Shown here piece by piece: positions 846 through 60,595 of a stretch of 64,000 nt of DNA. Source of the stretch: Schizochytrium sp. TIO01 (lineage: Eukaryota > Sar > Bigyra > Thraustochytrida > Thraustochytriidae); NCBI GenBank assembly GCA_004764695.1, contig SMSO01000004.1, positions 2,243,501 through 2,307,500 of the forward strand, given 5' to 3'. The position numbers and the translations under genes are program-made. The notes beneath the pieces are model-generated. The model was not told where the DNA came from. It saw only the letters and a list, made by a program, of their open reading frames with translations, and searched no databases. Position 1 is the first letter of the stretch; the number at the start of each line of letters is the position of its first letter.

Positions 846-3800
846 TTACCAGTAGATGTGGGAGGTACCAGAGGGAGAGCTGGTGTCGTTGTCCTTGGGG
901 TCCTCGACCCAGAAGCAGCGACCGTGGTATACGGCCTCCACAACATTCTTGCGGACAACGAAGTCACCGAAGCGCTCACCGTCGAGGCGCTCCTTGGCGT
1001 ACTGCTCGAAGAGCGGGCGGCAAATGTCGAGGATCTCCTCCTCACTGCAGCCGCGCTTGACAAGGCGAGCCAGACGCTCACCAGCACCACCACCTCCAAG
1101 AAGAAGGTGGTAGCGACCGGGAGCGGTACCAATGAGGGCAATCTCAGCCATGTAAGGACGAGCACAGCCGTTAGGGCAACCAGTGACACGGACCACAATC
1201 TCATCGTTGCGGAGACCGCACTCAGTGATGATGTCGTCCATCTTGTCGATGAGAGTGGGCAAGTAACGGGAAGCCTCAGCCATGGCAAGAGCACAGTACG
1301 GGAGGGAAGCACAAGCCATCGAGGACTTACGAAGGCCAGTGAAGCGCTCGTTGGACACGCCGTACTTGGCGAGGATGTCCTCGATAATCTGCTTGTTCTT
1401 GGGGGAGACCTTGCCAATAACAACGTTCTGGGTGGCGGTCAGAGACATCTCTCCGCCAGTGTTGGCCTTGGCAATCTCGTACAAGCAGGTACGGAGCTTG
1501 TAGTCCGGGTCGTCGCGAACGCTTCCGTTCTCCACAAAGAGAGTGTAGTCCCACATGCCATCGTATCCTTGAGCCCAGCCGTACTCGTCAGAGTTGCTGG
1601 TAAAGAAGATGGGGCCGGCCTTGCCAATCTTGAAGCCACAGATCTCCTCAACCTTGGCCTTGAAGACCTCGAGTCCCATGCGCTCGACAGTGTACTTAAG
1701 ACGGGCGTTCTTACGGTTCTCACGCTCACCGTTGTCACGCTGGACCTTGACGACAGCTTCGGCGACAGCGAGGACCTGGTCGGGGCGCACGGAACCGAGA
1801 ACATCGGCAAGACGCGGGTAGGTGGACTCCTGGCCGAAAGTGGTACCCATACCACCACCGACGGTGACAATGATGTCCAAGAGCTTGCCCTTCTTGATGT
1901 TGGCGATGAGACCCAAGCAGTGGGAGAAAACGTCAACAAGGTTGCGCTCGTTGTTGACTGCGAGGGCAATCTTGAACTTACGCGGGAGGTAGGTAGGTCC
2001 GTAAATCTTCTCCTCCATGACGGTACCGGCGACAATCTTCTTGTCAAGCCAGATCTGAGCGTATGAGAGGCCACCAGCCTGGGGGCGGAGGTGAGCCTGA
2101 AGCTTGCGGGAGAGCTCGTTGAACTCAGCGTGACCGGGTGACTTGCGCCAGTTCTGGTCACCAATGACGTTACGGTTGACATCACCACAGGCAGCGAGGG
2201 TATCCATGGCAGCACGGTTGATAGCCTTCATGGTGTCCTTAAGCTCGCCCTTGATGACACCGTGGATCTGGAAAGCCTGACGGGTGGTAACCTTGAGGAT
2301 CTGGTTGCCAGAGTACTTGGTGATGATGTCATCCATGGCAATCCACTGCTCAGAGGTGGCAACACCTCCGGGAAGACCAATACGGATCATGAAAGAGTAA
2401 GCAAGCTCCTGGTGAGCAGAGATGCGAGCCTCACGGAGCTCACGCTGGTCCTGCTGGTACATACCGTGGAACTTGGTGAGCTTGGTATCCTCAGGGAGGA
2501 GCTTACCGGTGGTGGTATCCTTAAGACCTTCGTCGATCATACCCTGCAAGAAGTTGGACTTGAGCTTGATATCATCGTCAACGATCTGCGGTGCACCGCC
2601 GAGATCCTTGGAGGTGTCAATGGTAACCTCGAGGGCATCCCACACAAGGGGCTCCCACTCACCGAGGGCGGTATCGTATCCATCCTCAGCTTGGTCATCA
2701 CCAAGACCGACGGGTGCAAGACGCTGGGCTCCGAGAGAGGCGAGCTTCTCGTCAACCTCGCGTGCGTTGAGGCAGAAGTACTTGGCGGAGTCATCAGTAT
2801 CCTTACCCCAGTAGTGGGAGTCTCCAAGACCGATAACAGCAAACTTGAGGTCCTCAAGGTTGACGTTGCAGCCCTTGAGGGACTCAAAGAAGTGCTTGCT
2901 GTTGGCACACGGCTCACCCTGACCAGCAGTGGCAAGGACGAGGATGAGGTGCTGCTCCTCGACGAGGTCCTCGGGGTTGACGTCATTAGCCTCAAGGCAG
3001 CGAACCTCTCCGCATCCGGAGACCTCAGCCTTCTTGGCGATCTTCTCAGCAACAGAGGCGGCGTTACCACCATCGGAACCGAAGAGCACAAGGAGGTTGA
3101 GGTTCTTGTTGCCTCCAGAGGTGGCAGCATCTGCGAGCTGGTCGAACTGGGCTGCAAGACGACGCTGCTGCGCGGCCTTAAGGAGCTCATCGTGCTGTGC
3201 GGCACGACGGTTCTCGAGAGTGGCCTCAGGGTCAACAACCGGGTTGGTGGGCGCAGCGTTGGAAAGAATACTGAGCTGCTGCTCGCGCTTGAGGAACTCC
3301 TCGATGGACTTGATTAGCTTGGCCGAATCCAGGGAGAATTCCTCGTCACGGTGTGCCGGGTTCCACCTGTACAAAGGCCATGCACCAGAGTCCACGGCGG
3401 CGGCAGCAACCACAGCGGCGTCGGCGGCCTTGCCAGAGTTCTCAGAGGCGAAGTTCTGCTCGAGGGATGCGAGCACGGACTGGGAGGAAGTGGTGGCGAT
3501 GGAGCTTCTGGGCGCATGTGCGAGGATGATAGAGGGGCCAACGTAGGCATCGGCCTCTGCAAGAGCACGAAGGGACTGGGACTGCGAAGCAAGAGCGGAA
3601 ACAGAAGCGACGTAGGCGTTGCCGTAGTTCATGGCGTAGAGGCCAATGTTGCGCTTCTTGGACTGCACGGGCTGGGCAGGCTGTTCCTCAACAGTGGGCG
3701 GCGCTGCGGTCATAGAGGCGGCGACGGAGACTGCACTCTGGTTGAGGTCAGTCTTTGCACTGTCAGCGTTGCTGGCGTCTTCGGAGGCAGAGAGGTCATC

Positions 3801-6131
3801 GTGGTCGAAGATGATGACGTTGACGTCGGCGCCACTCTTGAGGAGGTGGTGGATGCCGTTAGCGGCGAGGTCCTGGGCCCAGTTGTCTCCGGCAACGATC
3901 CACTCGGAGGCCTTGGGGAGAAGGTCGCGGTGCTCGTACACGAAGGTGACATCTGAGTGGCAGTCCTTCTCGGCAGTAAGGAGACCAACAAGGCGCGGGA
4001 TCACGCGGCCACAGCGCACGGCGTTGTCGTTGCTGCCGTGCCACATTCCAAGGGTGGCGAGGAGCTCCTTAGAGCAGAACTGAGCAGCCTTGCGGTCAGA
4101 GAGCATCTGCTTGACATAGTCCACGAGTCTCTTGCGAGCAATGGCGCGGGCAAGAGTGGCTCCGTAGGAGGCCTCGACGGACTCCATGACAGTCGAGGCG
4201 GTGGCGTCGGAGATAAGCAGACGCTCACCAAAGAGCTGCTGCATGAGGTCGCGGTACGGGAGTGTGCTGAGGTCTGTGGTGGCCGGTGCGGCCTTGGACT
4301 GGGTACCAGAGGCGGAGATGGGGGTCAGCGCAACAGGGCAGAGGTCCTGCGGGTAAGGTGTGGAGGTCTCGTCGTCAGCGTCGACGGAGGTCTTCCAGTT
4401 GGCCTTGGAGAGGTCAATCTGCACGAGGGCATCCTTGACGACGTCCGGTTTGAGCTTGGGAAGGAAGGTAGACATAGCCTCCGGCACAGCGACGGTAGCA
4501 ACGCGAGAGATGTGAGTGTAAGTCTGCGCGTAGTCAGCCTTGGCACCGAGGAGGTATACGCCAAGGAGCTGCATGGCCCAGTTGCTCAAAGCAGCGGCGT
4601 CGCCCACGAGCCGCGTGCCGTTGGCAATGAAGAGCTCGGCACCAGAGGCGACAAGCTTGGCGCGGAAGGCAGGTGTGAGCTCACGAGTGACCTCCTCGAT
4701 GGTCTTCCAGGGCGCATTAATAAGCAGCTTGGTGCCCTTCTGGGACTGGTCAAGAACGTCGCAGTTAGGCAAGAGAAGTACGGATGGGTCGTCTACGACA
4801 ATAACATCTGCGTTGCGAATGGTGTACTCAAAGTGCTTGAGCGCGATGGTGCCAAAGCGGAGCTCAGTTCGTGCAACACCAGACTGGGCACTGACTTGCT
4901 CAACAGCCTGGACCTTGAGGCCCATGACGGGTCCAACAACGGCAGCGAGTGCGTTGCGAGCGGCGGCACCGCTCTTACGGAGAGTCCATGTGACAACCTG
5001 GTCGATGAGGGAGGAGACCTCAGCGTAGGGGACAGTCTTCATGGCGGCCTCAACCTCGGCGACAGAGAGGCGTGCCTTGGGCTTGGGGCTGAGGAGGTTG
5101 TCCTCAATTGCGGTCACGAGACCCGGGTGGTATCCGAGAGCAGCGTGGGGCGCAAGGGAGACACTGATGATCTGCGGGGGCGCGTAGTGAGACTCACCAG
5201 CATGAAAGGATGCGGTGACATCCTTAAAGAGCGGGGTGTCGCCGTTCTTGCACTGGTCAACAACGCAGATTCTGCGAGTGGACTCCGGGAGGGCAGCAAG
5301 AAAGTGGGCTGCGGACCACGGGCGCACCACACGCACGCGGAGCACACCGACGCGCTTGCCAGGGAAGCTGACAGCGGCAGATCCGCAGGCAACGACGACG
5401 GCCTCGGCATCAGAGGGGCCAGAGTACTCGAAGAGACCAGCCTCGGAGCCGCAGACACGCTTGATGCCGGCATCAAGGGCGTGTGCAACGGAGGGCAGGC
5501 CCTGAAGGTCGGTGAGGTCGGAGCGGATCTCAGCGAGGTCCTCGACGGAGCGAAGGTCAACGTGGCTGAGGCCGCTGGCAAGACGAGTAGCGTCCCAGAA
5601 GTTAATGACGGGGGCACCCTGGGTCTCAGAGACGATGTGAGCGACAACAGCGAAGTCGTGGACCTCCTGCACAGAGGCAGCGGCAAGAATGGCAAAGCCA
5701 GTCTCGCGCACGGCCATCACATCACTGAGGTCAGCGGACACGCCACCATCCTCGGCGCGGGAAGCGGCAGAGACGTGGAGCACAACGCTGTTGCCGGCGC
5801 CAAGACGATCGGAGCCGATGGTGTAGAGGTTGCCGGCCATCTTGCGAAGCATCTGGCTTCCAGAGGTGACAGCAACACGGCCGCCCTCCTCCTTGAGCTC
5901 GGCAGCGGTGCTGTCAGCACGCTCTACAACGCGGACAGAGGGCACGGCACCGCTGGCGTTAGGCTTGAGAGCCTTCTGCCACGAGGTCAAGACATCCTCG
6001 GCAATACCGGGAGCGCCGGCCACATCGACACCGGCCTGAACGAGGACGGCATCGCTGAGAGCGTACGCAACATGTGCTGCAGCCTCGCCACCGTTCACAA
6101 GAACGCTGGCAACCTTGTCACCGGAGCCCAT
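846..6131 (-). CDS. Sulfite reductase [NADPH] beta subunit (siroheme hemoprotein, Met5/Ecm17 type)
   Basis: A 1761-residue intronless protein that reduces sulfite to sulfide in assimilatory sulfur metabolism, taking electrons from the flavoprotein subunit. Seen in order: an N-terminal pyruvate:ferredoxin-oxidoreductase-like region (about 1-580); a PFOR C-terminal remnant with NYGNAYVASV at about 835 and PLYRWNP at about 920; a flavodoxin domain from about 1010 (LLVLFGSDGG, LATAGQGEP, VIGLGDSHYW); and a nitrite/sulfite reductase hemoprotein domain from about 1220. The siroheme/4Fe-4S ligands are the pairs C-x5-C (CASLPYC, about 1610) and C-x3-C (TGCPNGCARP, about 1653). PFOR-like plus flavodoxin plus hemoprotein is the fungal Met5 plan; yeast Met5 is about 1440 residues, so this one is longer. 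The ATG at 6131-6129 is the first in frame and matches the start of the PFOR-like homology. Codons are strongly GC-biased, which suggests high expression. The partner subunit is at 17198-20747. Confidence 0.93.
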   Translation of the reverse strand: MGSGDKVASVLVNGGEAAAHVAYALSDAVLVQAGVDVAGAPGIAEDVLTSWQKALKPNASGAVPSVRVVERADSTAAELKEEGGRVAVTSGSQMLRKMAGNLYTIGSDRLGAGNSVVLHVSAASRAEDGGVSADLSDVMAVRETGFAILAAASVQEVHDFAVVAHIVSETQGAPVINFWDATRLASGLSHVDLRSVEDLAEIRSDLTDLQGLPSVAHALDAGIKRVCGSEAGLFEYSGPSDAEAVVVACGSAAVSFPGKRVGVLRVRVVRPWSAAHFLAALPESTRRICVVDQCKNGDTPLFKDVTASFHAGESHYAPPQIISVSLAPHAALGYHPGLVTAIEDNLLSPKPKARLSVAEVEAAMKTVPYAEVSSLIDQVVTWTLRKSGAAARNALAAVVGPVMGLKVQAVEQVSAQSGVARTELRFGTIALKHFEYTIRNADVIVVDDPSVLLLPNCDVLDQSQKGTKLLINAPWKTIEEVTRELTPAFRAKLVASGAELFIANGTRLVGDAAALSNWAMQLLGVYLLGAKADYAQTYTHISRVATVAVPEAMSTFLPKLKPDVVKDALVQIDLSKANWKTSVDADDETSTPYPQDLCPVALTPISASGTQSKAAPATTDLSTLPYRDLMQQLFGERLLISDATASTVMESVEASYGATLARAIARKRLVDYVKQMLSDRKAAQFCSKELLATLGMWHGSNDNAVRCGRVIPRLVGLLTAEKDCHSDVTFVYEHRDLLPKASEWIVAGDNWAQDLAANGIHHLLKSGADVNVIIFDHDDLSASEDASNADSAKTDLNQSAVSVAASMTAAPPTVEEQPAQPVQSKKRNIGLYAMNYGNAYVASVSALASQSQSLRALAEADAYVGPSIILAHAPRSSIATTSSQSVLASLEQNFASENSGKAADAAVVAAAAVDSGAWPLYRWNPAHRDEEFSLDSAKLIKSIEEFLKREQQLSILSNAAPTNPVVDPEATLENRRAAQHDELLKAAQQRRLAAQFDQLADAATSGGNKNLNLLVLFGSDGGNAASVAEKIAKKAEVSGCGEVRCLEANDVNPEDLVEEQHLILVLATAGQGEPCANSKHFFESLKGCNVNLEDLKFAVIGLGDSHYWGKDTDDSAKYFCLNAREVDEKLASLGAQRLAPVGLGDDQAEDGYDTALGEWEPLVWDALEVTIDTSKDLGGAPQIVDDDIKLKSNFLQGMIDEGLKDTTTGKLLPEDTKLTKFHGMYQQDQRELREARISAHQELAYSFMIRIGLPGGVATSEQWIAMDDIITKYSGNQILKVTTRQAFQIHGVIKGELKDTMKAINRAAMDTLAACGDVNRNVIGDQNWRKSPGHAEFNELSRKLQAHLRPQAGGLSYAQIWLDKKIVAGTVMEEKIYGPTYLPRKFKIALAVNNERNLVDVFSHCLGLIANIKKGKLLDIIVTVGGGMGTTFGQESTYPRLADVLGSVRPDQVLAVAEAVVKVQRDNGERENRKNARLKYTVERMGLEVFKAKVEEICGFKIGKAGPIFFTSNSDEYGWAQGYDGMWDYTLFVENGSVRDDPDYKLRTCLYEIAKANTGGEMSLTATQNVVIGKVSPKNKQIIEDILAKYGVSNERFTGLRKSSMACASLPYCALAMAEASRYLPTLIDKMDDIITECGLRNDEIVVRVTGCPNGCARPYMAEIALIGTAPGRYHLLLGGGGAGERLARLVKRGCSEEEILDICRPLFEQYAKERLDGERFGDFVVRKNVVEAVYHGRCFWVEDPKDNDTSSPSGTSHIYW

Positions 6132-41981: not shown

Positions 41982-42060
41982 GCTGTGATGGCCGAGCGGT
42001 TAAGGCGCCACGTTCAGGTCGTGGTCCGAAAGGGCGTGGGTTCGAGTCCCACTCACAGTA
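41982..42060 (+). tRNA. tRNA-Leu(CAG), copy 1
   Basis: A 79-nt cloverleaf with discriminator A. Acceptor GCTGTGA pairs with TCACAGT, the D arm is TGGCCGAGCGGTTAAGGCGCC, anticodon stem CCACG/CGTGG encloses loop TTCAGGT (anticodon CAG), there is a long class II variable arm, and the T arm is GTGGG-TTCGAGT-CCCAC. Internal A and B boxes are intact, there is no intron, and a T-run that can terminate RNA polymerase III follows within about 10 nt. Confidence 0.97.
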
Positions 42061-42208
42061 CATTATTTTTGATTTTTTTTAACCTCCCAACCTTCGTGCT
42101 ACTATCACTATCTCACTGTAGATTCTGTCCTTTTGTTTTTCCATATAGGCTCAGTCTAGTTTTACTAAACGGTTTTATAAGTAAGCATAGGGCTATGACA
42201 ATCATCTT

Positions 42209-42287
42209 GCTGTGATGGCCGAGCGGTTAAGGCGCCACGTTCAGGTCGTGGTCCGAAAGGGCGTGGGTTCGAGTCCCACTCACAGTA
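42209..42287 (+). tRNA. tRNA-Leu(CAG), copy 2
   Basis: Identical over all 79 nt to the copy at 41982-42060, 148 bp downstream on the same strand, with unrelated flanks. A T-run follows as RNA polymerase III terminator. Confidence 0.97.
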
Positions 42288-42649
42288 TTGTTTTTTAATT
42301 ATTTTTTTTTCTCGGATATGCTTTGTTTTTTTAATTAAAAAAATAATAGGATTTAACATTTTTGAGTTGACTCTGGTAGAGGAACCGGATTGCCTCAATT
42401 TTAATATCTGTCAGGGGAGGGGGGGTATCTAACAAAATGATGAATCTTCTCCCTTTCACCAGGGATAACAAAACATTTGATTAACGAAGGAGTACTAGGA
42501 CAATAATTTGTATCTGTAAACTTTTTGTCATTCAAGGAGTGAGAACTTTCATACAAGCTCAACGCAAGTGGATAAAGAAAATCGAGTATAGTTTTGAGAG
42601 CCCATTAACTATACTCCTGGGGAGAGAATATAGGAGAGAACAGGCGAAA

Positions 42650-49105: not shown

Positions 49106-52100
49106 ATGCGAGCCCCTCAGAGATGGTTTGCCCCTACTCTTGCTGCTCTAGTAGCGATAATTTACATGGTAAAGGCTGACAAACCTGCTGAAGGCCTTGC
49201 TCAGAATCTAGCAACTGATTTTGAAACTGCAGCATCTATAGATAGCCGGAAACTCTTTACATTGGCTGCGAATGGTCCCGGAAAGGGCGGTCATAGAGTT
49301 GTGAAAGACCGAAAACTATCGTCATCCAAAAATAACAACAACAATGGCAACAACAATGGCAACAACAATGGCAACAACAATGGCAACAACAATGGCAACA
49401 ACAATGGCAACAACAATGGCAACAACAATGGCAATAAAAAGTCACCCACGCCAAGACCCACGCCAAAACCTACGGAACTTCCAACCACAAGCCCAACCTC
49501 CCTAAGCCCAACGCAAAGCCCGACTCAAAGCCCAACCAAGCTTTTTACAAGTGGTTCATACAATGCTGATCTCTGCAACTGCAATAATGCTACAATCAGA
49601 ATTAGATGTGACAATAAGCTTCAGTTCCGCCAATACGAATTGACGGATGACGCTTATGTCGAAGAGCCTAGCGAACGCACTGGTGATTGGGATTTGGAGA
49701 ACTGGCGAGAGACGTTCACTACAGTTGTCGATCTTTCTGGTAAGACCCATTTGGAATTCGAATGCAAAGATGTTTCCGATGTCGGAGGCTTTGTGGCAGA
49801 AATTGAGGCTTGCGGATACCGGTTCATCACAGATGAAAGTGTTACTATTGAAAGTGACCCCAGCCCATATGAATGGTTTATCAACCCTGACAAGTCTGAC
49901 TCCTCATCTTCAACCCTTGTTTACGAGGCTATGGGCTCTGGTAAGTGGGGAAGTACTGGCAGCGGACTCAAAGATGAAGATACATTTTGGGTTTGGAATG
50001 ACAACAACCTCAATACCATGACATTTGGTTTCAATTTGGAATGCCCTAGTGATGAGTGCACCTCTGCAACAATTAAGGCTCGGTGTGACAATTATCTGCA
50101 ATTTCGACAATACGAATTGTCCGACGACAGCTTATTTGTGGAATTAGCGAGCGATCGTACAGGAGAATGGGACATCACAGAATGGGAAAACACATTCACT
50201 AAAACTATCAATTTGACTGATAACACACATCTTGAATTCGAATGTAAAGATGACGGTTCTACTGGAGGCTTTCAAGCCGTGATTGATGCATGTGGAACAC
50301 GATATTTAACGAACGGATCCACAGTAATTAATGCAAACCCTGATTCTTTAGAGTGGTACATCGAACCAACTCTAACAGATGCATCTTCAAAAGATTTAGT
50401 GTATACTCAGAATGGTAACGGTGGCTGGGGTCTACCAGCTGAGGGTCTGACTGATACAGATGTATACTGGGTGTGGAACGGGGAGACTTATAACACGATG
50501 ACATTTGCCTTTAACTTCGGACGGGCTCGCTATTTTACAAATGCTCCAACAACTCCTTCGCCCACTGATGCACCTACGAACGCTCCAACAACTCCTTCGC
50601 CTACGAATGCACCTACGAATGCTCCAACAACTCCTTCGCCCACTGATGCACCTACGAATGCTCCAACAACTCCTTCGCCCACTGATGCACCTACGAATGC
50701 TCCAACAACTCCTTCGCCTACGAATGCACCTACGAATGCTCCAACAACTCCTTCGCCTACGAATGCACCTACGAATGCTCCAACAACTCCTTCGCCTACG
50801 AATGCACCAACGAACGCTCCAACAACTCCTTCGCCTACGAATGCACCTACGAATGCTCCAACAACTCCTTCGCCCACTGATGCACCTACGAATGCTCCAA
50901 CAACTCCTTCGCCCACTGATGCACCTACGAATGCTCCAACAACTCCTTCGCCTACGAATGCACCTACGAATGCTCCAACAACTCCTTCGCCTACGAATGC
51001 ACCTACGAATGCTCCAACAACTCCTTCGCCTACGAATGCACCTACGAATGCTCCAACAACTCCTTCGCCCACTGATGCACCTACAGAAGTGCGAGTATCG
51101 GAGACTGACACGAATTCTCCAACTTCAGCTCCAACACTTGCAAGATGTGATATCACCAAAGTTCAACTGTCCGGTGGTAAAACACTGTCAACTGAAAAAG
51201 GGGTCGGGAGTATTGATGCTTGCCGTGAGCTTTGTATCGGCGTAGATCAATGTACGGGCTATTCGTGGAACTCAAAGAGCAAGGTATGCTTGCTCAAATC
51301 TGGGACTTTTAAGCTGAAGAAAAACAAGAAATCAATCGCAGGCACCTTTGTTTGCCCTTCGCCAAGTTCTTGTTATTCACAATTCTACATGTACAATGGA
51401 GCGTCTCTCCTTAAGACAGGTAACATCGCCTCCGTAGAAGAGTGCGCAGAGATTTGTTACAGTACTTCTAGTTGTGTAGCTTGGGTATATCAAGCAAGTA
51501 AAGAAATGTGCTCTCTTCGTAAGAGCGCTGGTAAGAAAAAATCTACAACTGCTGATTTCATCACTGGTCTTACGGCAGGGTGTACTCCAACCGCATCTCC
51601 TACCTCCTCTCCCACTGAAGACTCTTCTTCAACTTCTGATGACGGCACCATAGCACCCACTGCGGCACCAACACTCAATTCATATGGGTTTTCTGTCATC
51701 CCGTGTGGCCCAAAGGTCAATGATGTATTGTTCATTTTGGACTCTTCTGGTTCCGTGAGCAGTACAGAATGGGCCCAGTTAACAGAGTTTATCCAGGCTC
51801 TCGGAAGTGCGTTTCAGGTCGGTTCTACTAGCTCGGACTCTCGCCTGGCAGCTGTTCGTTTTGCCAGTAGTGTGACTACTTTGTGGGATTTTGATTCAAC
51901 GATTGCTACTTCACAAAGTCTGTTTCAAACTACCATGGAGACAGTACCCAGAGTGAGCTCTGGCACTGGTACTGGCGGTGCGTTAATCAGGGCACAGAAA
52001 ATCTTTGCGAACACCGAAATTCGTTCTGGACTTGATCGAAGGGTCGCAATTATTCTTACAGATGGAAATCCCACCAAAAATACCGATTGCAAGGCTAACG

Positions 52101-52342
52101 GGTACCCGAAGAACCCCAAAACGTGTGCCAAGAAGGCAGCTGCAGATTTACGTAAGGGTGCTGACGGGATTCTTGGAACCGATGATGACGTATATCTGGT
52201 TTTTGTGCGCATAGGAAACGGAGTCAATGCCGCAGCATTTGGATCGGTCGAGGACCTCCAAGTTCAAGCAGATGCAGATGGTCTGATGTCAATTTCTGAT
52301 GAAATCATCTCTGACGTGTGTGACATTGACTCTTCATCCTAA
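49106..52342 (+). CDS. Secreted modular protein: duplicated unknown domain, PT repeats, two PAN/Apple-like modules, vWA domain
   Basis: 1078 residues, intronless. Residues 1-24 form a signal peptide. An (NNNG)n tract (about 76-112) and a Pro/Thr/Ser linker follow. Two tandem copies of an unrecognised domain of about 155 residues (about 152-310 and 311-475) share RCDNxLQFRQYEL, RTGxWD, THLEFECKD, GGFxAxIxACG and FWVWN/YWVWN motifs. Next come 14 copies of a 13-residue NAPTTPSPT(D/N)APT repeat (about 479-660), two cysteine-rich PAN/Apple-like modules (about 680-750 and 754-830) and a von Willebrand factor A domain (about 870-1065) with an intact DSSGS metal-site motif and ILTDGNPT. No transmembrane segment or GPI signal is seen at the C-terminus, so it is probably secreted or wall-associated. 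PT linkers with adhesive modules are typical of stramenopile surface proteins; an adhesion or carbohydrate-binding role is inference. Confidence 0.9.
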   Translation: MRAPQRWFAPTLAALVAIIYMVKADKPAEGLAQNLATDFETAASIDSRKLFTLAANGPGKGGHRVVKDRKLSSSKNNNNNGNNNGNNNGNNNGNNNGNNNGNNNGNNNGNKKSPTPRPTPKPTELPTTSPTSLSPTQSPTQSPTKLFTSGSYNADLCNCNNATIRIRCDNKLQFRQYELTDDAYVEEPSERTGDWDLENWRETFTTVVDLSGKTHLEFECKDVSDVGGFVAEIEACGYRFITDESVTIESDPSPYEWFINPDKSDSSSSTLVYEAMGSGKWGSTGSGLKDEDTFWVWNDNNLNTMTFGFNLECPSDECTSATIKARCDNYLQFRQYELSDDSLFVELASDRTGEWDITEWENTFTKTINLTDNTHLEFECKDDGSTGGFQAVIDACGTRYLTNGSTVINANPDSLEWYIEPTLTDASSKDLVYTQNGNGGWGLPAEGLTDTDVYWVWNGETYNTMTFAFNFGRARYFTNAPTTPSPTDAPTNAPTTPSPTNAPTNAPTTPSPTDAPTNAPTTPSPTDAPTNAPTTPSPTNAPTNAPTTPSPTNAPTNAPTTPSPTNAPTNAPTTPSPTNAPTNAPTTPSPTDAPTNAPTTPSPTDAPTNAPTTPSPTNAPTNAPTTPSPTNAPTNAPTTPSPTNAPTNAPTTPSPTDAPTEVRVSETDTNSPTSAPTLARCDITKVQLSGGKTLSTEKGVGSIDACRELCIGVDQCTGYSWNSKSKVCLLKSGTFKLKKNKKSIAGTFVCPSPSSCYSQFYMYNGASLLKTGNIASVEECAEICYSTSSCVAWVYQASKEMCSLRKSAGKKKSTTADFITGLTAGCTPTASPTSSPTEDSSSTSDDGTIAPTAAPTLNSYGFSVIPCGPKVNDVLFILDSSGSVSSTEWAQLTEFIQALGSAFQVGSTSSDSRLAAVRFASSVTTLWDFDSTIATSQSLFQTTMETVPRVSSGTGTGGALIRAQKIFANTEIRSGLDRRVAIILTDGNPTKNTDCKANGYPKNPKTCAKKAAADLRKGADGILGTDDDVYLVFVRIGNGVNAAAFGSVEDLQVQADADGLMSISDEIISDVCDIDSSS
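49330..49436 (+). repeat. (AACAACAATGGC)n coding minisatellite
   Basis: Nine or so 12-bp units encoding Asn-Asn-Asn-Gly, nearly perfect at the DNA level, within the secreted PT-repeat protein. Confidence 0.92.
50541..51087 (+). repeat. 39-bp coding minisatellite (14 PT-repeat units)
   Basis: Fourteen tandem 39-bp units encoding NAPTTPSPT(D/N)APT. Units come in two main types, differing by CCCACTGAT versus CCTACGAAT, in the order D N D D N N N N D D N N N D. High DNA-level identity indicates recent expansion. Units are multiples of 3 and lack stops in two other frames, which produces long spurious frames. Confidence 0.95.
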
Positions 52343-52692: not shown

Positions 52693-54063
52693 TTCTTTTT
52701 TAGAGGAGTTAAAAAAAAACTCTTTTTATTTTTATAAAAATCTGACAGTACTAGGATATATTAAGTAGGTACACTATCATAGTAGTAAATATGCAGTAGT
52801 ACTTCTCCAAAGTACTACTACGTCTCTAAATGGAAAGTGTGGAGGACTAATCCATCGAGTCCCTATTCCTTTCCTGGGAACAAAACAAAGGAGGAACGAA
52901 ATTCAGAAATGATCAAACTTTCTTCATTTGTCTTGGGCAGGTAGAACCCTTACTTTCGCTAGCTTTCTATACCTCTCAAAGCTCAGGAGCAGGGAAGCAA
53001 GTGCAGTGTTGTCTTGACAATTAATTGAAGTACAACAGCTAAATATGTACATAGGTATGTATCTATAAGTAGAATGGTCACAATCCCACTCCCTAGACCT
53101 GGACAAGATGGACCTTGTCAGCAGTTCCTGAATGTTAATGCTAACCATTCTTTTCCTTCATTCCTCTATCTACGCTATCTCTTGGTGAACGCCTCACCCT
53201 AATTTGCCATAAAATTGCAGAATGCAAAGAAAGTTCTTTGCATCTTAAAGAAGCGTCTGCGACCACCTCATTGTCACTCTAGTCGATCTGCATACAAAAT
53301 GGTGATCGGAATGCAAACTTTGCCCTGCGCACAAGTGATTTCGTCGATGAAAATAAGTACTGCAGCTTCCACGAGGGAACAAGCTCAATGACGTATATCA
53401 TTAGCATGCGTTCAAGGAGGTTTAGACTCTGCACAATGATGTTGCCTGTTTTTTAGTTGTTCGAAAGGGAAAAAAAATAAAGAGGAAAAAAAAAAAGGAG
53501 GAAAAAAACATTCAACACCGGGGCTTCGCATGCAGTCCCCTATCATACTACTGACCCGGCCCTACGCGACTTTACTTCTCAGTGCGAATGAGATGAGATG
53601 TTACCCGCGTGGTATGATCGAATGTACTATTGGACAGGTGTATATTGAATATATACAGAGTATTAAATGGGTTGTTGTTGTTTACTTCTCATAGTAGGTA
53701 GTGCTAAGAGATACTATTGCTGGAACTTCTGGAGCAATATCACTGCAAAAAATATTCTAGTAGTAATAGTCTTGAAAGAGCGAGAAAGAAAGGAGGTCAG
53801 CACATGCAGAACCAGAGGCTGAGTAGGGAAGGTTAGGTTCAAACTAGTAAAATATCCTTTTACTTCGAGAGCATATCTCCTTCTTAGGGGAAACCATAGT
53901 AACTCAGTAAGTCAGACACCATGTGCACAACCCCGATGACTTGCAGCTTTACGTCCAGCAGGTTCGAAACCTTCTGCAACGACTGGGACTGTGCCACGAG
54001 CTTCGCTAAGAACGTACACGCACGCGCACGCTGGTTGAAGTTTAGATCTTTCCTTACTGCACG
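52693..54063. other. Intergenic region upstream of the LRR gene
   Basis: No gene is supported. An open frame at about 53917-54006 (DDLQLYVQQVRNLLQRLGL) looks protein-like and could be an upstream exon, but no donor site follows it before the stop at 54007. The promoter of the LRR gene should lie here. Confidence 0.4.
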
Positions 54064-54171
54064 ATGTCAGACCACCCAGATGTTGTCGATGCCCTTGAGC
54101 AGCTTCGGAATGGCGCTACAGCATTGTCGTAGGTTAACATGGTACTCTCGGTCGGTCGGTCGGTCGGTCGG

Positions 54172-54225
<54 letters not shown>

Positions 54226-57200
54226 GCTTGCTTGCTTGCTTGCTTGATTCATTGATTCATTGATTCATTGATTATGCATTAATCAAAGAGGAAAATGACA
54301 ACACAACAAAGAGGAAATCCTAAAAGCCAACCTAGATCACTCACGTTCACGCCTGCATACGTGCCTCTCATGCAATGTAATATATTGCTTGCCATCATTC
54401 AATCAATTCGACAGTCTTTCTTGGAAAAATATCGGCGACGAGGGTGCCAAGGCAGTGGCTGCGGCGCTGAAAGAGAACCAGTCGCTGACATCACTTGAGT
54501 AAGTTGTCTACGCAACACCGTAGCGTATGGACTCGTTTGTACATGATGCTTGGTTTGTTGTTTGGTGGGTGGGTCGGTGTTGTTTTGCAAGTTTATGCAA
54601 TCTCTTGTTTGTTTGATGGATGGATGAGTTGTCTGTTTGAGTGAGTATACATCCATCGAACAAAGAGCAAAATGACAACACAACAAAGATAAATGCCGAA
54701 AGCCAACCTAGCTCACTCACGTCCATGCATGCATGCGTGCATCTATTGTAATATGTAACGTGTAATGTATTTCTTGCCCTCATTCAATCAAATCGACAGT
54801 CTTTTCTACAACCGCATCGGCGACGAGGGCGCCAAGGCAGTGGCTTCGGCGCTGAAAGAGAACCGGTCGCTGGCATCACTCAAGTAAGTTGTCTACGCAA
54901 CACCGCAGCTCGTGGACTTGTTTGTACATGATGATTGGTTTGTTGTTTGGTGGGTGGGTCGGTGTTGTTTTGCAAGTTTATGCAATCTCTTGTTTGTTTG
55001 ATGGATGGATGAGTTGTCTGTTTGAGTGAGTATACATCCATCGAACAAAGAGCAAAATGACAACACAACAAAGATAAATGCTTAAAGCCAACCTAGATCA
55101 CTCACGTCCATGCATGCATGCGTGCATCTATTGTAATATGTAACGTGTAATGTATTGCTTGCCATCATTCAATCAAATCGACAGTCTTTCGTGCAACAAA
55201 ATCGGCTCAGAGGGCGCCAAGGCAGTGGCTTCGGCGCTGAAAGAGAACCGGTCGCTGACATCACTTGAGTAAGTTGTCTACGCAACACCGCAGCTCGTGG
55301 ACTTGTTTGTACATGATGCTTGGTTTGTTGTTTGATGGGTAGGTCGGTGTTGTTTTGCAAGTTTATGCAATCGCTTGTTTGTTTGATGGATGGATGAGTT
55401 GTCTGTTTGAGTGAGTATACATCCATCGAACAAAGAACAAAATGACAACACAACAAAGATAAATGCTGAAAGCCAACCTAGATCACTCACGTCCATGCAT
55501 GCATGCGTGCATCTATTGTAATATGTAACGTGTAATGTATTGCTTGCCATCATTCAATCAAATCGACAGTCTTAGAAGCAACGATATCGGCTCAGAGGGC
55601 GCCAAGGCAGTGGCTGCGGCGCTGAAAGAGAACCGGTCGCTGACATCACTCAAGTAAGTTGTCTACGCAACACCGCAGCTCGTGGACTTGTTTGTACATG
55701 ATGGTTGGTTTGTTGTTTGGTGGGTGGGTCGGTGTTGTTTTACAAGTTTATGCAATCGCTTGTTTGTTTGATGGATGGAAGAGCTGTATGTTTGAGTGAA
55801 TATACATCCATCGAACAAAGAGCAAAATGACAACACAACAAAGATAAATGCTGAAAGCCAACCTAGATCACTCACGTCCATGCATGCATGCGTACATCTA
55901 TTGTAATATGTAACGTGTAATGTATTTCTTGCCATCATTCAATCAAATCGACAGTCTTGGAGGCAACAATATCGGTGACGAGGGCGCCAAGGCAGTGGCT
56001 GCGGCGCTGAAAGAGAACCGGTCGCTGACATCACTCAAGTAAGTTGTCTACGCAACACCGCAGCTCGTGGACTTGTTTGTACATGATGCTTGGTTTGTTG
56101 TTTGGTGGGTGGGTCGGAGTTGTTTTGCAAGTTTATGCAATCGCTTGTTTGTTTGATGGATGGATGAGTTGTCTGTTTGAGTGAGTATACATTCATCGAA
56201 CAAAGAGCAAAATGACAACACAACAAAGATAAATGCTGAGAGCCAACCTAGATCACTCACGTCCATGCATGCATGCGTGCATCTATTGTAACATGTAACA
56301 TGTAATGTATTGCTTGCCATCATTCAATCAAATCGACAGTCTCGCTAGCAACGAAATCGGCTCAGAGGGCGCCAAGGCAGTGGCTGCGGCGCTGAAAGAG
56401 AACCGGTCGCTGACATCACTCAAGTAAGTTGTCTACGCAACACCGCAGCTCGTGGACTTCTTTATACATGATGCTTGGTTTATTGTTTGGTGGGTGGGTC
56501 GGTGTTGTTTTGCAAGTTTATGCAATCGCTTGTTTGTTTGATGGATAGATAAGTTGTCTGTTTGAGTGAGTATACATGCATCGAACAAAGAGCAAAATGA
56601 CAACACAACAAAGACAAAATGCTGAAAGCCAACCTAGATCACTCACGTCCATGCATGCATGCGTGCATCTATTGTAATATGTAACGTGTAATGTATTGGT
56701 TGCCATCATTCAATTAAATCGACAGTCTTTCGTGCAACAAAATCGGCTCAGAGGGCGCCAAGGCAGTGGCTGCAGCGCTGAAAGAGAACCGGTCGCTGGC
56801 ATCACTCAAGTAAGTTGTCTACGCATCAGCGCAGCTCGTGGACTTGTTTCTACATGATGCTTGGTTTGTTGTTTGGTGGGTGGGTCGGTGTTGTTTTGCA
56901 AGTTTATGCAATCGCTTGTTTGTTTGATGGATGGATGGGTTATCTGTTTGAGTGAGTATACATCCATCGAACAAAGAGCAAAATGACAACACAACAAAGA
57001 TCAAATGCTGAAAGACAACCTAGATCACTCACGTCCATGCATGCATGCGAGCATCTATTGTAACATGTAACGTGTAATGTATTGCTTGCCATCATTCAAT
57101 CAAATCGACAGTCTTTATGGCAACAATATCGGCTCAGAGGGCGCCAAGGCAGTGGCTGCGGCGCTGAAAGAGAACCGGTCGCTGACATCACTTGAGTAAG

Positions 57201-60200
57201 TTGTTTACGCAACACCGCAGCTCGTGGACTTGTTTGTACATGATGCTTGGTTTGTTGTTTGGTGGGTGGGTCGGTGTTGTTTTGCAAGTTTATGCAATCT
57301 CTTGTTTGTTTGATGGATGGATGAGTTGTCTGTTTGAGTGAGTATATATCCATCGAACAAAGAGCAAAATAACAACACAACAAAGATAAATGCTGAAAGC
57401 CAACCTAGATCACTCACGTCCATGCATGCATGCTTACATCTATTGTAATATGTAACGTGTAATGTATTGGTTGCCATCATTCAATCAAATCGACAGTCTC
57501 GCTAGCAACGAAATCGGCGACGAGGGCGCCAAGGCAGTGGCTGCAGCGTTGAAAGAGAACCAGTCGCTGACATCACTTGAGTAAGTTGTCTACGCAACAC
57601 CGCAGCTCGTGGACTTGTTTGTACATGATTCTTTGTTTGTTGTTTGGTGCGTTGGGTCGGTGTTGTTTTGCAAGTTTATGCAATCGCTTGTTTGATAGAT
57701 GGATGGATGGTTGCGTTGTCTGTTTGAGTGTGTATGCTTTCATCGAACAAAGAGCAAAATGACAACACAACAAAGATAAATGCTGACAGCCAACCTAGAT
57801 CACTCACGTCCATGCATGCATGCGTGCATCTATTGTAACATGTAACATGTAATGGATTGCTTGCCATCATTCAATCAAATCGACAGTCTTAGAAGCAACG
57901 ATATCGGCTCAGAGGGCGCCAAGGCAGTGGCTGCGGCGCTGAAAGAGAACCGGTCGCTGACATCACTTGAGTAAGTTGTCTACGCAACACCGCAGCTCGT
58001 GGACTTGTTTGTACATGATGCTTGGTTTGTTGTTTGGTGGGTGGGTCGGTGTTGTTTTGCAAGTTTATGCAATGGCTTGTTTGTTTGATGGATGGATGGG
58101 TTGTCTGTTTGAGTGAGTATACATCCATCGAACAAAGAGCAAAATGACAACACAACAAAGATAAATCCTGAAAGCCAACCTAGATCACTCACGTCCATGC
58201 ATGCATGCGTGCATCTATTGTAATATGTAACGTGTAATGTATTGCTGGCCATCATTCAATCAAATCGACAGTCTTTTGTGGAACGATATCTGCTCAGAGG
58301 GCGCCAAGGCAGTGGCTGCGGCGCTGAAAGAGAACCGGTCGCTGACATCACTCAAGTAAGTTGTCTACGCAACACCGCAGCTCGTGGACTTGTTTGTACA
58401 TGATGCTTGGTTTGTTATTTGGTGGGTGGGTCGGTGTTGTTTTGCAAGTTTATGCAATCTCTTGTTTGTTTGATGGATGGATGAGTTGTCTGTTTGAGTG
58501 AGTATACATCCATCGAACAAAGAGCAAAATGACAACACAACAAAGACAAAATGCTGAAAGTCAACCTTGATCACTCACGTCCATGCATGCATGCGTGCAT
58601 CTATTGTAATATGTAACGTGTAATGTATTGGTTGCCATCATTCAATCAAATCGACAGTCTTTGGGGCAACAATATCGGCTCAGAGGGCGCCAAGGCAGTG
58701 GCTGCGGCGCTGAAAGAGAACCGGTCGCTGGCATCACTCAAGTAAGTTGTCTACGCAACACGGCAGATACCGCAGCTCATGGACTTTTTTGTACTGATGC
58801 TTGGTTGTTGTTTGTTGGGTGGGTTGGTGTTGTTTTGCAAGTTTATGCAATCTCTTGTTTGTTTGATGGATGGATGGGTTGTCTGTTTGAGTGAGTATAC
58901 ATCCATCGAATAAAGAGCAAAATGACAACACAACAAAGATAAATGCTTAAAGCCAACCTAGATCACTCACGTCCATGCATGCATGCGTGCATCTATTGTA
59001 ATATGTAACGTGTAATGTATTGCTTGCCATCATTCAATCAAATCAACAGTCTTTATGGCAACTATATCGGCTCAGAGGGCGCCAAGGCAGTGGCTGCGGC
59101 GCTGAAAGAGAACCGGTCGCTGACATCACTATCGTAAGTTGTCTACGCAACACCGCAGCTCGTGGACTTGTTTGTACATGATGCTTGGTTTGTTGTTTGG
59201 TGGGTGGGTCGGAGTTGTTTTGCAAGTTTATGCAATCGCTTGTTTGTTTGATGGATGGATGGGTTGTCTGTTTGAGTGAGTATACATCCATCGAATAAAG
59301 AGCAAAATGACAACACAACAAAGATAAATGCTGAAAGTCAACCTAGATCACTCACGCCCATGCATGCATGCGTGCATCTATTGTAATATGTAACGTGTAA
59401 TGTATTGGTTGCCATCATTCAATCAAATCGACAGTCTTGGAGGCAACAAGATCGGTGACGAGGGCGCCAAGGCAGTGGCTGCGGCGCTGAAAGAGAACCG
59501 GTCGCTGACATCACTTGTGTAAGTTGTCTACTCAACACCGCAGCTCGTGGACTTGTTTGTACATGATGCTTGGTTTGTTGTTTGTTGGGTGGGTCGGGGT
59601 TGTTTTGCAAGTTTATGCAATCTCTCGTTTTTGTTTGTTTGTTTGTTTGTTTGTTTGTTTGTTTGTTTGTTTGTTTGTTTGTTTGTTTGTTTGTTTGTTT
59701 GTTTGATGGATGGATGGATGAATGGATGGATGAATGAGTTGTCTGTTTGAGTGAGTATACATCCATTGAACAAAGAGCAAAATGACAACACAACAAAGAT
59801 AAATGCTTAAAGCCAACCTAGATCACTCACGTCCATGCATGCATGCGTGCATCTATTGTAATATGTAACGTGTAATGTATTGGTTGCCATCATTCAATCA
59901 ATTGACAGTCTTGAATACAATAATATCGACGACGAGGGCGAAAAGGCAGTGGCTGCGGCGCTGAAAGTGAACTGGTCGCTGACATTACTTGAGTAAGTTG
60001 TTTAAGCAATAGCTCGTGTACTGGTTTGTGCATGAGACTTGGTTGGTTTGTTGCGTCGTGGGTTGTCTACTGTGTTGTTTTCCCGATGTTTTTCTTCGCG
60101 TCATTGCAAGTTTGTTGCGGAATTGTTTGTTTGATTGATTGTGGATGTAACAAAGAACATGATAATATCAGAGAATAAATGAAACTGTACTGGCAATACT

Positions 60201-60595
60201 GTGGGTGCCTTTTGATGACGTGAAATTGTTAACTGACGAACGGAGTTGATGTCATTTGGTTTTTACTGATCCTTAGAATGTCCGATGGGTTGACGGATGA
60301 AATGTACAAGGAGCGCCAGTTTAATAAAGAAATTTATTCTGCAAAGGTAAGAAGGAAAATGCTTGAACATATATCTCGTGAGCTTCGTTGTATACATGTT
60401 ATAAACGATGCACTTTCTATACCGTTTTCAGTAAAGCGTAGTATTCTTACACAAGCTTGGCCTGCGAACAGGTCTGGTATGCCGAGTTCAAAAGAGGACT
60501 ATATTGCTGCGCAGAAAGTAGAGCTTGATTTGCTGGAAGCTGCAAACGTTGCCTTTCATGCAACATTGGGCTGTCTAGGCCCTTACATATTATAA
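54064..60595 (+). CDS. Leucine-rich-repeat protein encoded by 15 interchangeable one-LRR exons
   Basis: Spliced model of 547 residues. Exon 1 is 54064-54128 (starts MSDHPDVVDALEQL). Fifteen 84-nt exons start at 54415, 54800, 55185, 55570, 55955, 56340, 56726, 57112, 57497, 57887, 58272, 58658, 59050, 59435 and 59909. The last exon is 60277-60595. All introns are GT-AG, most with GTAAGTT donors and CGACAG acceptors, and all coding junctions are phase 2; the total of 1644 nt is exactly 548 codons. Each middle exon encodes one 28-residue RNI-type LRR (L-x-x-N-x-I-G-S/D-E-G-A-K-A-V-A-A-A-L-K-E), the class found in NLRC, RanGAP and ribonuclease-inhibitor proteins. The modules vary almost only at the two residues after the first Leu and at the residue after Asn. 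The last exon encodes about 106 residues of an unrecognised, partly helical tail. There is no signal peptide or membrane segment, so an intracellular protein is likely. LRRs imply protein or ligand binding; the partner is unknown. Confidence 0.85.
54149..54246 (+). repeat. (GGTC)n and (TTGC)n microsatellite in intron 1 of the LRR gene
   Basis: About five GGTC units followed by about 18 TTGC units with one variant. It replaces the first half of the otherwise conserved intron; the second half of this intron is homologous to the array introns. Confidence 0.9.
54415..59992 (+). repeat. 385-bp tandem exon-intron repeat array (15 units)
   Basis: Exon starts are spaced 385, 385, 385, 385, 385, 386, 386, 385, 390, 385, 386, 392, 385 and 474 bp. 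Each unit is one 84-nt LRR exon plus a near-identical 301-nt intron that includes GGTGGGTGGGTCGG, a TTTG/GATG-rich part and CATGCATGCATGCGTGCATC. Neighbouring introns differ by only a few per cent. The last unit is the most diverged in its exon, and its preceding intron is expanded by a (TTTG)n tract. Confidence 0.95.
59632..59705 (+). repeat. (TTTG)n expansion inside an LRR-gene intron
   Basis: About 18 TTTG units where other introns of the array have two or three. This accounts for most of the longer spacing (474 bp) before the last LRR exon. Confidence 0.93.

Follow-up and report, generated by a model that had tools for sequence, protein, structure and literature searches.

A tandem-exon leucine-rich repeat gene family in Schizochytrium sp. 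TIO01 with hypervariable codons at predicted concave-face positions

Genes that devote a separate exon to each leucine-rich repeat (LRR) have been described in brown algae, Tetrahymena, and humans, and here we compare them with an LRR gene found in a 64,000-nucleotide stretch of the thraustochytrid Schizochytrium sp. TIO01 (contig SMSO01000004.1, or C3, positions 2243501-2307500; hereafter the window), from a genome of 64.06 Mb in 37 contigs. In the brown-algal LRR-ROCO genes, each LRR occupies one 72-bp phase-2 exon, the tandem exons are shuffled, the concave residues are under positive selection according to site models, and an immune role has been proposed (PMC11378527). In Tetrahymena, young LRR genes built of 90-bp phase-2 exons number in the thousands, and most species have over a thousand LRR genes. 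The repeat units are ~350 bp long (near 347 bp in T. thermophila), with species-specific intron lengths; the youngest genes are subtelomeric and pericentromeric, ectopic recombination and an association with an element resembling long interspersed nuclear elements are described, and most of the genes are reported to be under purifying selection (PMC6564038). None of the terms positive selection, diversifying, variable positions, and concave turned up in word searches of the text examined. Most human NOD and NLRC genes encode one 28-aa LRR of the ribonuclease inhibitor (RNI) type per exon; the exon border falls inside the beta-sheet, and the exons preserve the frame and are open to alternative splicing (PMC6642158).

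In the window gene and its relatives, a tandem exon architecture is combined with homogenized introns, codon-level diversity, a large uncoupling of introns from variable codons, and scarce silent change. Judging from sequence, this family is probably a germline-encoded LRR recognition repertoire that has arisen through a combination of exon shuffling, gene conversion, and diversifying selection.

A family of single-repeat exon arrays

The window contains a single 17-exon gene on the forward strand (54064-60595), with a joined frame of 547 aa that is open to TAA and is made up of a short first exon, fifteen 84-nt exons, and a last exon carrying a 105-aa tail. All fifteen of the 84-nt exons have AG/GT borders and encode one 28-aa RNI-type LRR each, and all sixteen introns are of phase 2. 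The array proposed by the initial annotation, made from the window's letters, is thus real, and its residue readings for the 15 modules (SW/KN through EY/NN) are all correct. Its extent, 54415..59992, covers the LRR exons of what is a longer gene, and the uniform 385-bp period that it gave holds for 8 of the 14 steps between units; three others are 386 bp, and the rest are 390, 392, and 474 bp, the last being longest because of a TTTG microsatellite. A Pfam scan of the protein finds LRR_6 in 15 stretches, and its sequence relatives in the PDB include ribonuclease inhibitor, LRR domains of NLR type, and LRR proteins from ciliary complexes; by these Pfam and PDB matches the protein belongs to the RNI-type LRR class, with its 28-29-aa RI-class repeats. 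The 105-aa tail matches no Pfam family, and none of 58 protein-database candidates scored against it.

Searching the genome for further arrays of the 385-bp-type unit, as had been suggested, gave at least 394 matches to one unit. A search with the tail gave 54 matches, which resolve into 39 loci like that of the window gene and a further 7 belonging to a diverged sister type (36-40% identity), the remaining matches being second pieces, partial, stop-bearing, or weak. We read 30 arrays or fragments, some with N stretches or cut at an edge, and a first exon of the window-gene kind is present in 21 of the 30 loci, window gene counted. Seventeen arrays give complete gene models, all of them open on the same phase, and from sequence these have 4-20 modules flanked by an N-terminus and a tail (~105 aa) that are both conserved; in one (C33:4823200) an LRR match with unfit borders was left out. 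The 13 arrays not modeled as complete mostly have one end outside the sequence examined. From 323 LRR-exon matches, six with unfit borders were set aside and 317 exons were extracted, 314 of which are 84 nt long and free of stops.

Across these 314 modules, LRR codons 7, 8, and 10 are hypervariable, with 41, 31, and 28 different codons specifying 20, 17, and 15 residues, respectively, while the Asn codon between 8 and 10 encodes Asn in 293 modules. The variable residues are skewed toward Ser, Gly, Asn, Glu, Asp, Arg, Lys, and Tyr. Residues at these positions of RNI-type LRRs lie on the concave face, and residues 7, 8, and 10 are accordingly predicted to line the concave ligand face. These are the three codons that had been singled out beforehand; a fourth variable codon, Ser/Asp, lies three codons downstream of variable codon 10, and the intron-split codon varies too, both mostly taking two or three states.

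The contrast with the rest of the unit is large. In a set of 27 arrays (295 exons and 266 introns, with the near-duplicates C30:5516158 and C23:58900 and one array lacking a usable intron excluded), the variable bases reach a diversity of 0.600 (95% interval 0.572-0.622), compared with 0.055 in the exon scaffold and 0.087 in the introns, and the ratio of variable-base to intron diversity is 6.9 (95% interval 5.5-9.3, arrays resampled). Variable bases are more diverse than introns in all 24 arrays that have at least 5 exons and at least 4 introns. In the window array alone, the nine variable bases have a diversity of 0.525 and the Ser/Asp codon one of 0.514, against 0.044 both in the introns and at other exon sites (taken without the variable, Ser/Asp, and split codons and the base preceding the split codon), and the introns differ by a mean of 4.35% over 91 following-intron pairs, in keeping with the few per cent noted at first. 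The per-site comparison of exon and intron that the initial annotation proposed therefore places the predicted concave-face codons well above the introns, and its broader claim of an amplified, homogenized, recognition-type module in a protist is supported.

Selection, mutation, and exchange of modules

Two features of the variable codons help to tell selection from mutation. The first is that none of the 942 variable codons is a stop, against ~49 expected from base composition. The second is the scarcity of silent change: in two-fold pyrimidine codons at positions 7, 8, and 10, T/C third-base diversity is 0.195, 0.143, and 0.106 (0.185, 0.137, and 0.100 without two near-duplicate arrays), compared with first-base diversity of 0.674, 0.621, and 0.668 in the same codons and second-base diversity of 0.53 at positions 7 and 8. 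The preferred third-base pyrimidines are T, C, and T, found in 66/74, 132/143, and 152/161 two-fold codons; because the preference is specific to the position, it is explained by descent and not by general codon bias. Among haplotype pairs one step apart, which are not independent of each other, 13/173 changes are synonymous, compared with 19-23% expected. Codons that are free of stops and low in silent diversity favor selection on residues over random targeted mutation, which would scramble silent bases too. Replacement change at the predicted contact residues appears to exceed both silent and intron change, as would be expected of a diversifying repertoire.

Introns and variable codons are largely uncoupled. 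When pairs of modules are ranked by their following intron only, the variable codons differ by ~0.6 at every intron distance from 0.3% up, and by 0.28 in the 33 closest pairs, near-duplicate arrays among them. Similarly, the introns of the window modules that carry identical variable codons (3/7, 4/10, and 6/9) differ about as much as those of other pairs. Across 276 unique exons, codons 7 and 8 are strongly linked (z 18.1), and linkage decays within ~20 nt, with z of 4.4, 3.8, 3.3, 2.3, and 1.1 at 6-18 nt and -1.0 to 1.5 for farther pairs, values that are only roughly comparable as the sites differ in variety. Near-duplicates aside, different arrays have just two runs of two or more identical modules in common, of four and two modules, and five further runs are repeats within one array. 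This linkage decay and these few shared runs indicate that exchange has been extensive and has involved stretches of a single module or less. The four-module block common to C23 and C17 keeps its variable codons unchanged, and ~39 of its 1500 alignment columns differ (~2.6%, gaps included). As recombination has largely uncoupled introns from variable codons, the pairwise intron-versus-exon comparison that was originally put forward as a rate argument is not sufficient by itself, and the case rests instead on per-site diversity and the silent-site control. For the units used in that argument, 3 and 4, the low intron difference stands (3.65%, ~11/301), and the variable bases differ at 6/9, where 7/12 had been counted.

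A closely related pair of genes, on C25 and C27, allows change to be followed more directly. These genes have a first-exon peptide in common, and their tail sides differ at 5/897 bases. Their nine modules align in register, and 41/81 variable bases differ across them, compared with 53/2388 intron bases. In modules 1, 2, 3, and 8, chosen because they are few steps apart, nine variable bases differ and eight of the changes replace a residue; modules 3 and 8 have seven other differing sites each. Conversion tracts and point changes are both possible sources of the change in this pair.

Could a dedicated mutational process have produced the same pattern? A mutator aimed at these sites, or templated mutagenesis, acting much as a diversity-generating retroelement or a deaminase does, might rewrite three codons and leave their neighbors, including the intervening Asn codon, nearly invariant, as we observe. 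Modules 3 and 4 of C36, whose flanking introns are both less than 1% apart, resemble such an event, with 8/9 variable bases different and 0/68 scaffold bases. This is one of 8 pairs with both flanks within 1%, which have a mean variable difference of 4.25/9 and include 2 with identical variable codons, and conversion from a paralogue with near-identical flanks would also explain it. A mutator is harder to reconcile with the lack of stops, with silent bases kept where replacement is saturated, and with the four-module block unchanged between two genes despite the difference in its columns, and we think it very unlikely. On these grounds, the original suggestion of diversifying selection or targeted variation is retained in its first part and not in its second.

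Several observations weigh against a repertoire driven by diversifying selection. Second-base diversity at position 10 is just 0.119. The silent third bases of the variable codons exceed intron T/C sites (0.043) in diversity by a factor of 2.5-4.5, so age or hitch-hiking would explain part of the excess, with the variants somewhat older than the introns. Uncoupling is large but incomplete, as the variable difference falls when both flanking introns are close: excluding near-duplicate arrays, it is 2.96/9 within 1.5% (27 pairs), 4.48/9 within 2% (126 pairs), and 5.22/9 within 3% (918 pairs). In C25/C27, 46/675 other exon sites differ, 18 of them located in either the Ser/Asp codon or the last three bases, as do 45/957 bases on the 5' side, and some of the change may therefore stem from conversion tracts. 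The C5/C30 (11 modules) and C7/C23 (7 modules) pairs are near-identical in their overlap, with unchanged variable codons. Three of the 317 extracted exons are off-length (87 or 90 nt) and stop-bearing, and were excluded from the counts; together with the tails on C21 and C6 (2 of 39), which look broken or in pieces, they indicate that some members are damaged. Finally, a naive all-pairs (Nei-Gojobori) ratio of nonsynonymous to synonymous differences per site at the variable codons is 1.13, low because change there is saturated, and we do not rely on these counts.

This ratio near 1 would also suit a model of relaxed constraint with concerted evolution, in which the residues drift freely and conversion homogenizes everything else with no diversifying selection. 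Homogenization is indeed clear, as introns differ by 0.077 within arrays and 0.087 between them. Yet the introns should be about as free as the drifting codons and undergo the same conversion, and they are ~7 times less diverse; within the three codons, silent sites show much lower diversity than replacement sites; and the absence of stops and the biased residues are not what free drift would leave. We therefore regard relaxed constraint as unlikely.

The damaged members also bear on whether these arrays are an assembly artefact or a decaying pseudogene family. Some contigs are short or end near an array (C23, C29), the C5 and C30 genes are near-identical copies, and some tail matches are partial or stop-bearing, in addition to the off-length exons. 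Arrays differ in module order across many contigs, every complete model is open, and no 84-nt exon contains a stop, which makes such an origin highly improbable.

The diverged sister subfamily provides a further point of comparison. It has 7-8 copies (a second search added part of an eighth), with LRR exons at irregular distances; seven were found by motif in one copy, with the same border phase. Three copies (L051, L052, and L053) are 3.9-5.1% apart, and for five LRR exons in frame in all three, the residue is identical at 15/15 corresponding positions. Hypervariability would thus be a property of the tandem, homogenized family and not of every gene of this plan, although this control is indicative only, as it compares orthologous modules with the partly shuffled modules of the tandem family.

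Diversifying selection within a shuffled repertoire could operate as follows. Family members would encode solenoid-shaped RNI-type LRR proteins, probably cytosolic. Each module sits on one symmetric phase-2 exon and is therefore movable without breaking the frame; given this phase and length, an array may gain or lose modules, and modules may be skipped or exchanged. Near-identical units would undergo ectopic recombination and gene conversion, keeping the introns and scaffold alike, and the same recombination would move modules between arrays, helped by a subtelomeric position. Diversifying selection on residues 7, 8, and 10 would create and maintain variety, the resulting repertoire would bind non-self or otherwise variable partner molecules, and the tail may act as an output or assembly domain. 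What is bound need not be a pathogen: diversified LRR arrays fit allorecognition also, and no known immune-pathway effector domain is among the Pfam families listed. A role outside defense, in self/non-self or mating recognition, in adhesion, or in binding an internal client that itself diversifies, for instance a protein of viral or transposon origin, is a possibility of some substance, if not the one we would choose, and we have no specific point against it. It is also conceivable, though quite doubtful, that the repertoire is anticipatory and changes within the clonal growth of this unicellular stramenopile, in an adaptive-like manner. Each cell line would then acquire a distinct set of concave faces through mitotic ectopic conversion among dozens of near-identical arrays, possibly assisted by frame-neutral exon skipping.

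Genomic setting

Beyond the window, toward its contig end, lies a large-subunit ribosomal RNA (rRNA) gene (L054 1-811) followed by a TTAGG telomere. The window LRR gene is ~18 kb from this end, and is therefore subtelomeric. Such an end recalls the subtelomeric ribosomal DNA of Aurantiochytrium reportedly described by Collier et al. in 2023. Across the family, 28 of the 39 tail loci are no more than 100 kb from a contig end, a distance that for some contigs was measured to the low end only.

The window gene stands head-to-head with a 5S rRNA gene (Table 1), as do its relatives: a 5S gene lies within 500 bp in at least 25 of 31 near-full family upstream flanks, these being the flanks that cover most of the query out of 49 upstream-flank matches. 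The count is a lower bound, as 47 of 2196 5S candidates were scored and the window's own 5S gene, missed among them, was added by hand. The three sister-type copies examined each contain a 5S gene as well. The near-identical 11-module genes at C5:1792356-1798807 and C30:5516158-5522609 each carry a second, weaker 5S match, and their identity starts close to the 5S gene, as if the 5S were a breakpoint of subtelomeric exchange. A 1763-aa frame on C35 with a tail-like match was dropped, as it runs into an N stretch.

Elsewhere in the window, an uninterrupted frame of 1078 aa (49106-52342) contains a 39-bp repeat tract of PTNAPTTPS type at 50536-51084, and its residues 140-470 have no scored relative among 3946 candidates. 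Two tRNA-Leu(CAG) genes (41982-42061 and 42208-42288) lie ~150 bp apart, and an uninterrupted 1761-aa frame on the reverse strand (846-6131) presumably encodes a flavodoxin/sulfite reductase fusion.

Table 1. Parts of the window LRR gene and the adjoining 5S rRNA gene (positions within the window)
Feature	Position	Strand	Details
5S rRNA gene	53507..53625	-	Rfam RF00001, 92.9 bits; head-to-head, ~440 bp upstream of LRR-gene ATG
Coding exon 1	54064..54128	+	65 nt, phase-2 end, donor GTAGGT
Coding exon 1 peptide	54064..54128	+	MSDHPDVVDALEQLRNGATALS plus split codon
LRR exon 1	54415..54498	+	SW/KN
LRR exon 2	54800..54883	+	FY/NR
LRR exon 3	55185..55268	+	SC/NK
LRR exon 4	55570..55653	+	RS/ND
LRR exon 5	55955..56038	+	GG/NN
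LRR exon 6	56340..56423	+	AS/NE
LRR exon 7	56726..56809	+	SC/NK
LRR exon 8	57112..57195	+	YG/NN
LRR exon 9	57497..57580	+	AS/NE
LRR exon 10	57887..57970	+	RS/ND
LRR exon 11	58272..58355	+	LW/ND
LRR exon 12	58658..58741	+	WG/NN
LRR exon 13	59050..59133	+	YG/NY
LRR exon 14	59435..59518	+	GG/NK
TTTG x19 microsatellite	59630..59705	+	within intron 3' of LRR exon 14
LRR exon 15	59909..59992	+	EY/NN, scaffold diverged
Last exon, 105-aa tail, stop TAA	60277..60595	+	window-gene model; 39 tail-type loci including window gene

Relation to described LRR systems

Like the brown-algal LRR-ROCO genes, reportedly the subject of a study by Zambounis et al. in 2012, the family has one LRR per symmetric phase-2 exon in tandem. 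Unlike them, it does not have 72-bp exons and a C-terminal ROC GTPase; its modules are 84-bp and of RNI type, its 105-aa tail is unrelated, and no ROC domain is among the ten Pfam families listed for the 547-aa protein at E up to 1. The likeness to Tetrahymena extends to one LRR per fixed-length phase-2 exon, a similar unit length, subtelomeric placing, and, as proposed here, ectopic recombination, and the exons, at 84 nt, are not the exactly 90 bp by which the Tetrahymena genes are defined.

With the vertebrate NOD and NLRC genes, the family has in common one 28-aa RNI-type LRR per frame-preserving exon; to our knowledge, the exons of those genes are not near-identical tandem copies with hypervariable codons. 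The variable lymphocyte receptors (VLRs) of agnathans have LRRNT and LRRCT caps, are secreted or membrane-bound, and are somatically assembled. The family resembles them in placing hypervariable residues on the (here predicted) concave face of LRR modules. The likeness to VLR or NLR repertoires that was first drawn thus holds in principle and not in domain content: among those same ten Pfam families there is no LRRNT or LRRCT cap such as marks a VLR, and no NACHT or NB-ARC domain such as marks an NLR. Our search of the literature on LRR arrays and thraustochytrid LRR genes found no description of this family, which, in open-license papers only, is weak evidence of novelty.

Overall, this family appears to be of the same kind as the brown-algal ROCO and Tetrahymena LRR exon arrays and to be a different gene, from another lineage. 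It would add a further protist gene family that uses single-LRR phase-2 exons as a modular recognition repertoire, one in which the near-identity of the units outside a few codons makes it possible to tell selection, conversion, and mutation apart at close to single-codon resolution. Thraustochytrids are culturable, which would allow repertoire change to be tested in clonal lines or in response to pathogens, such as viruses.

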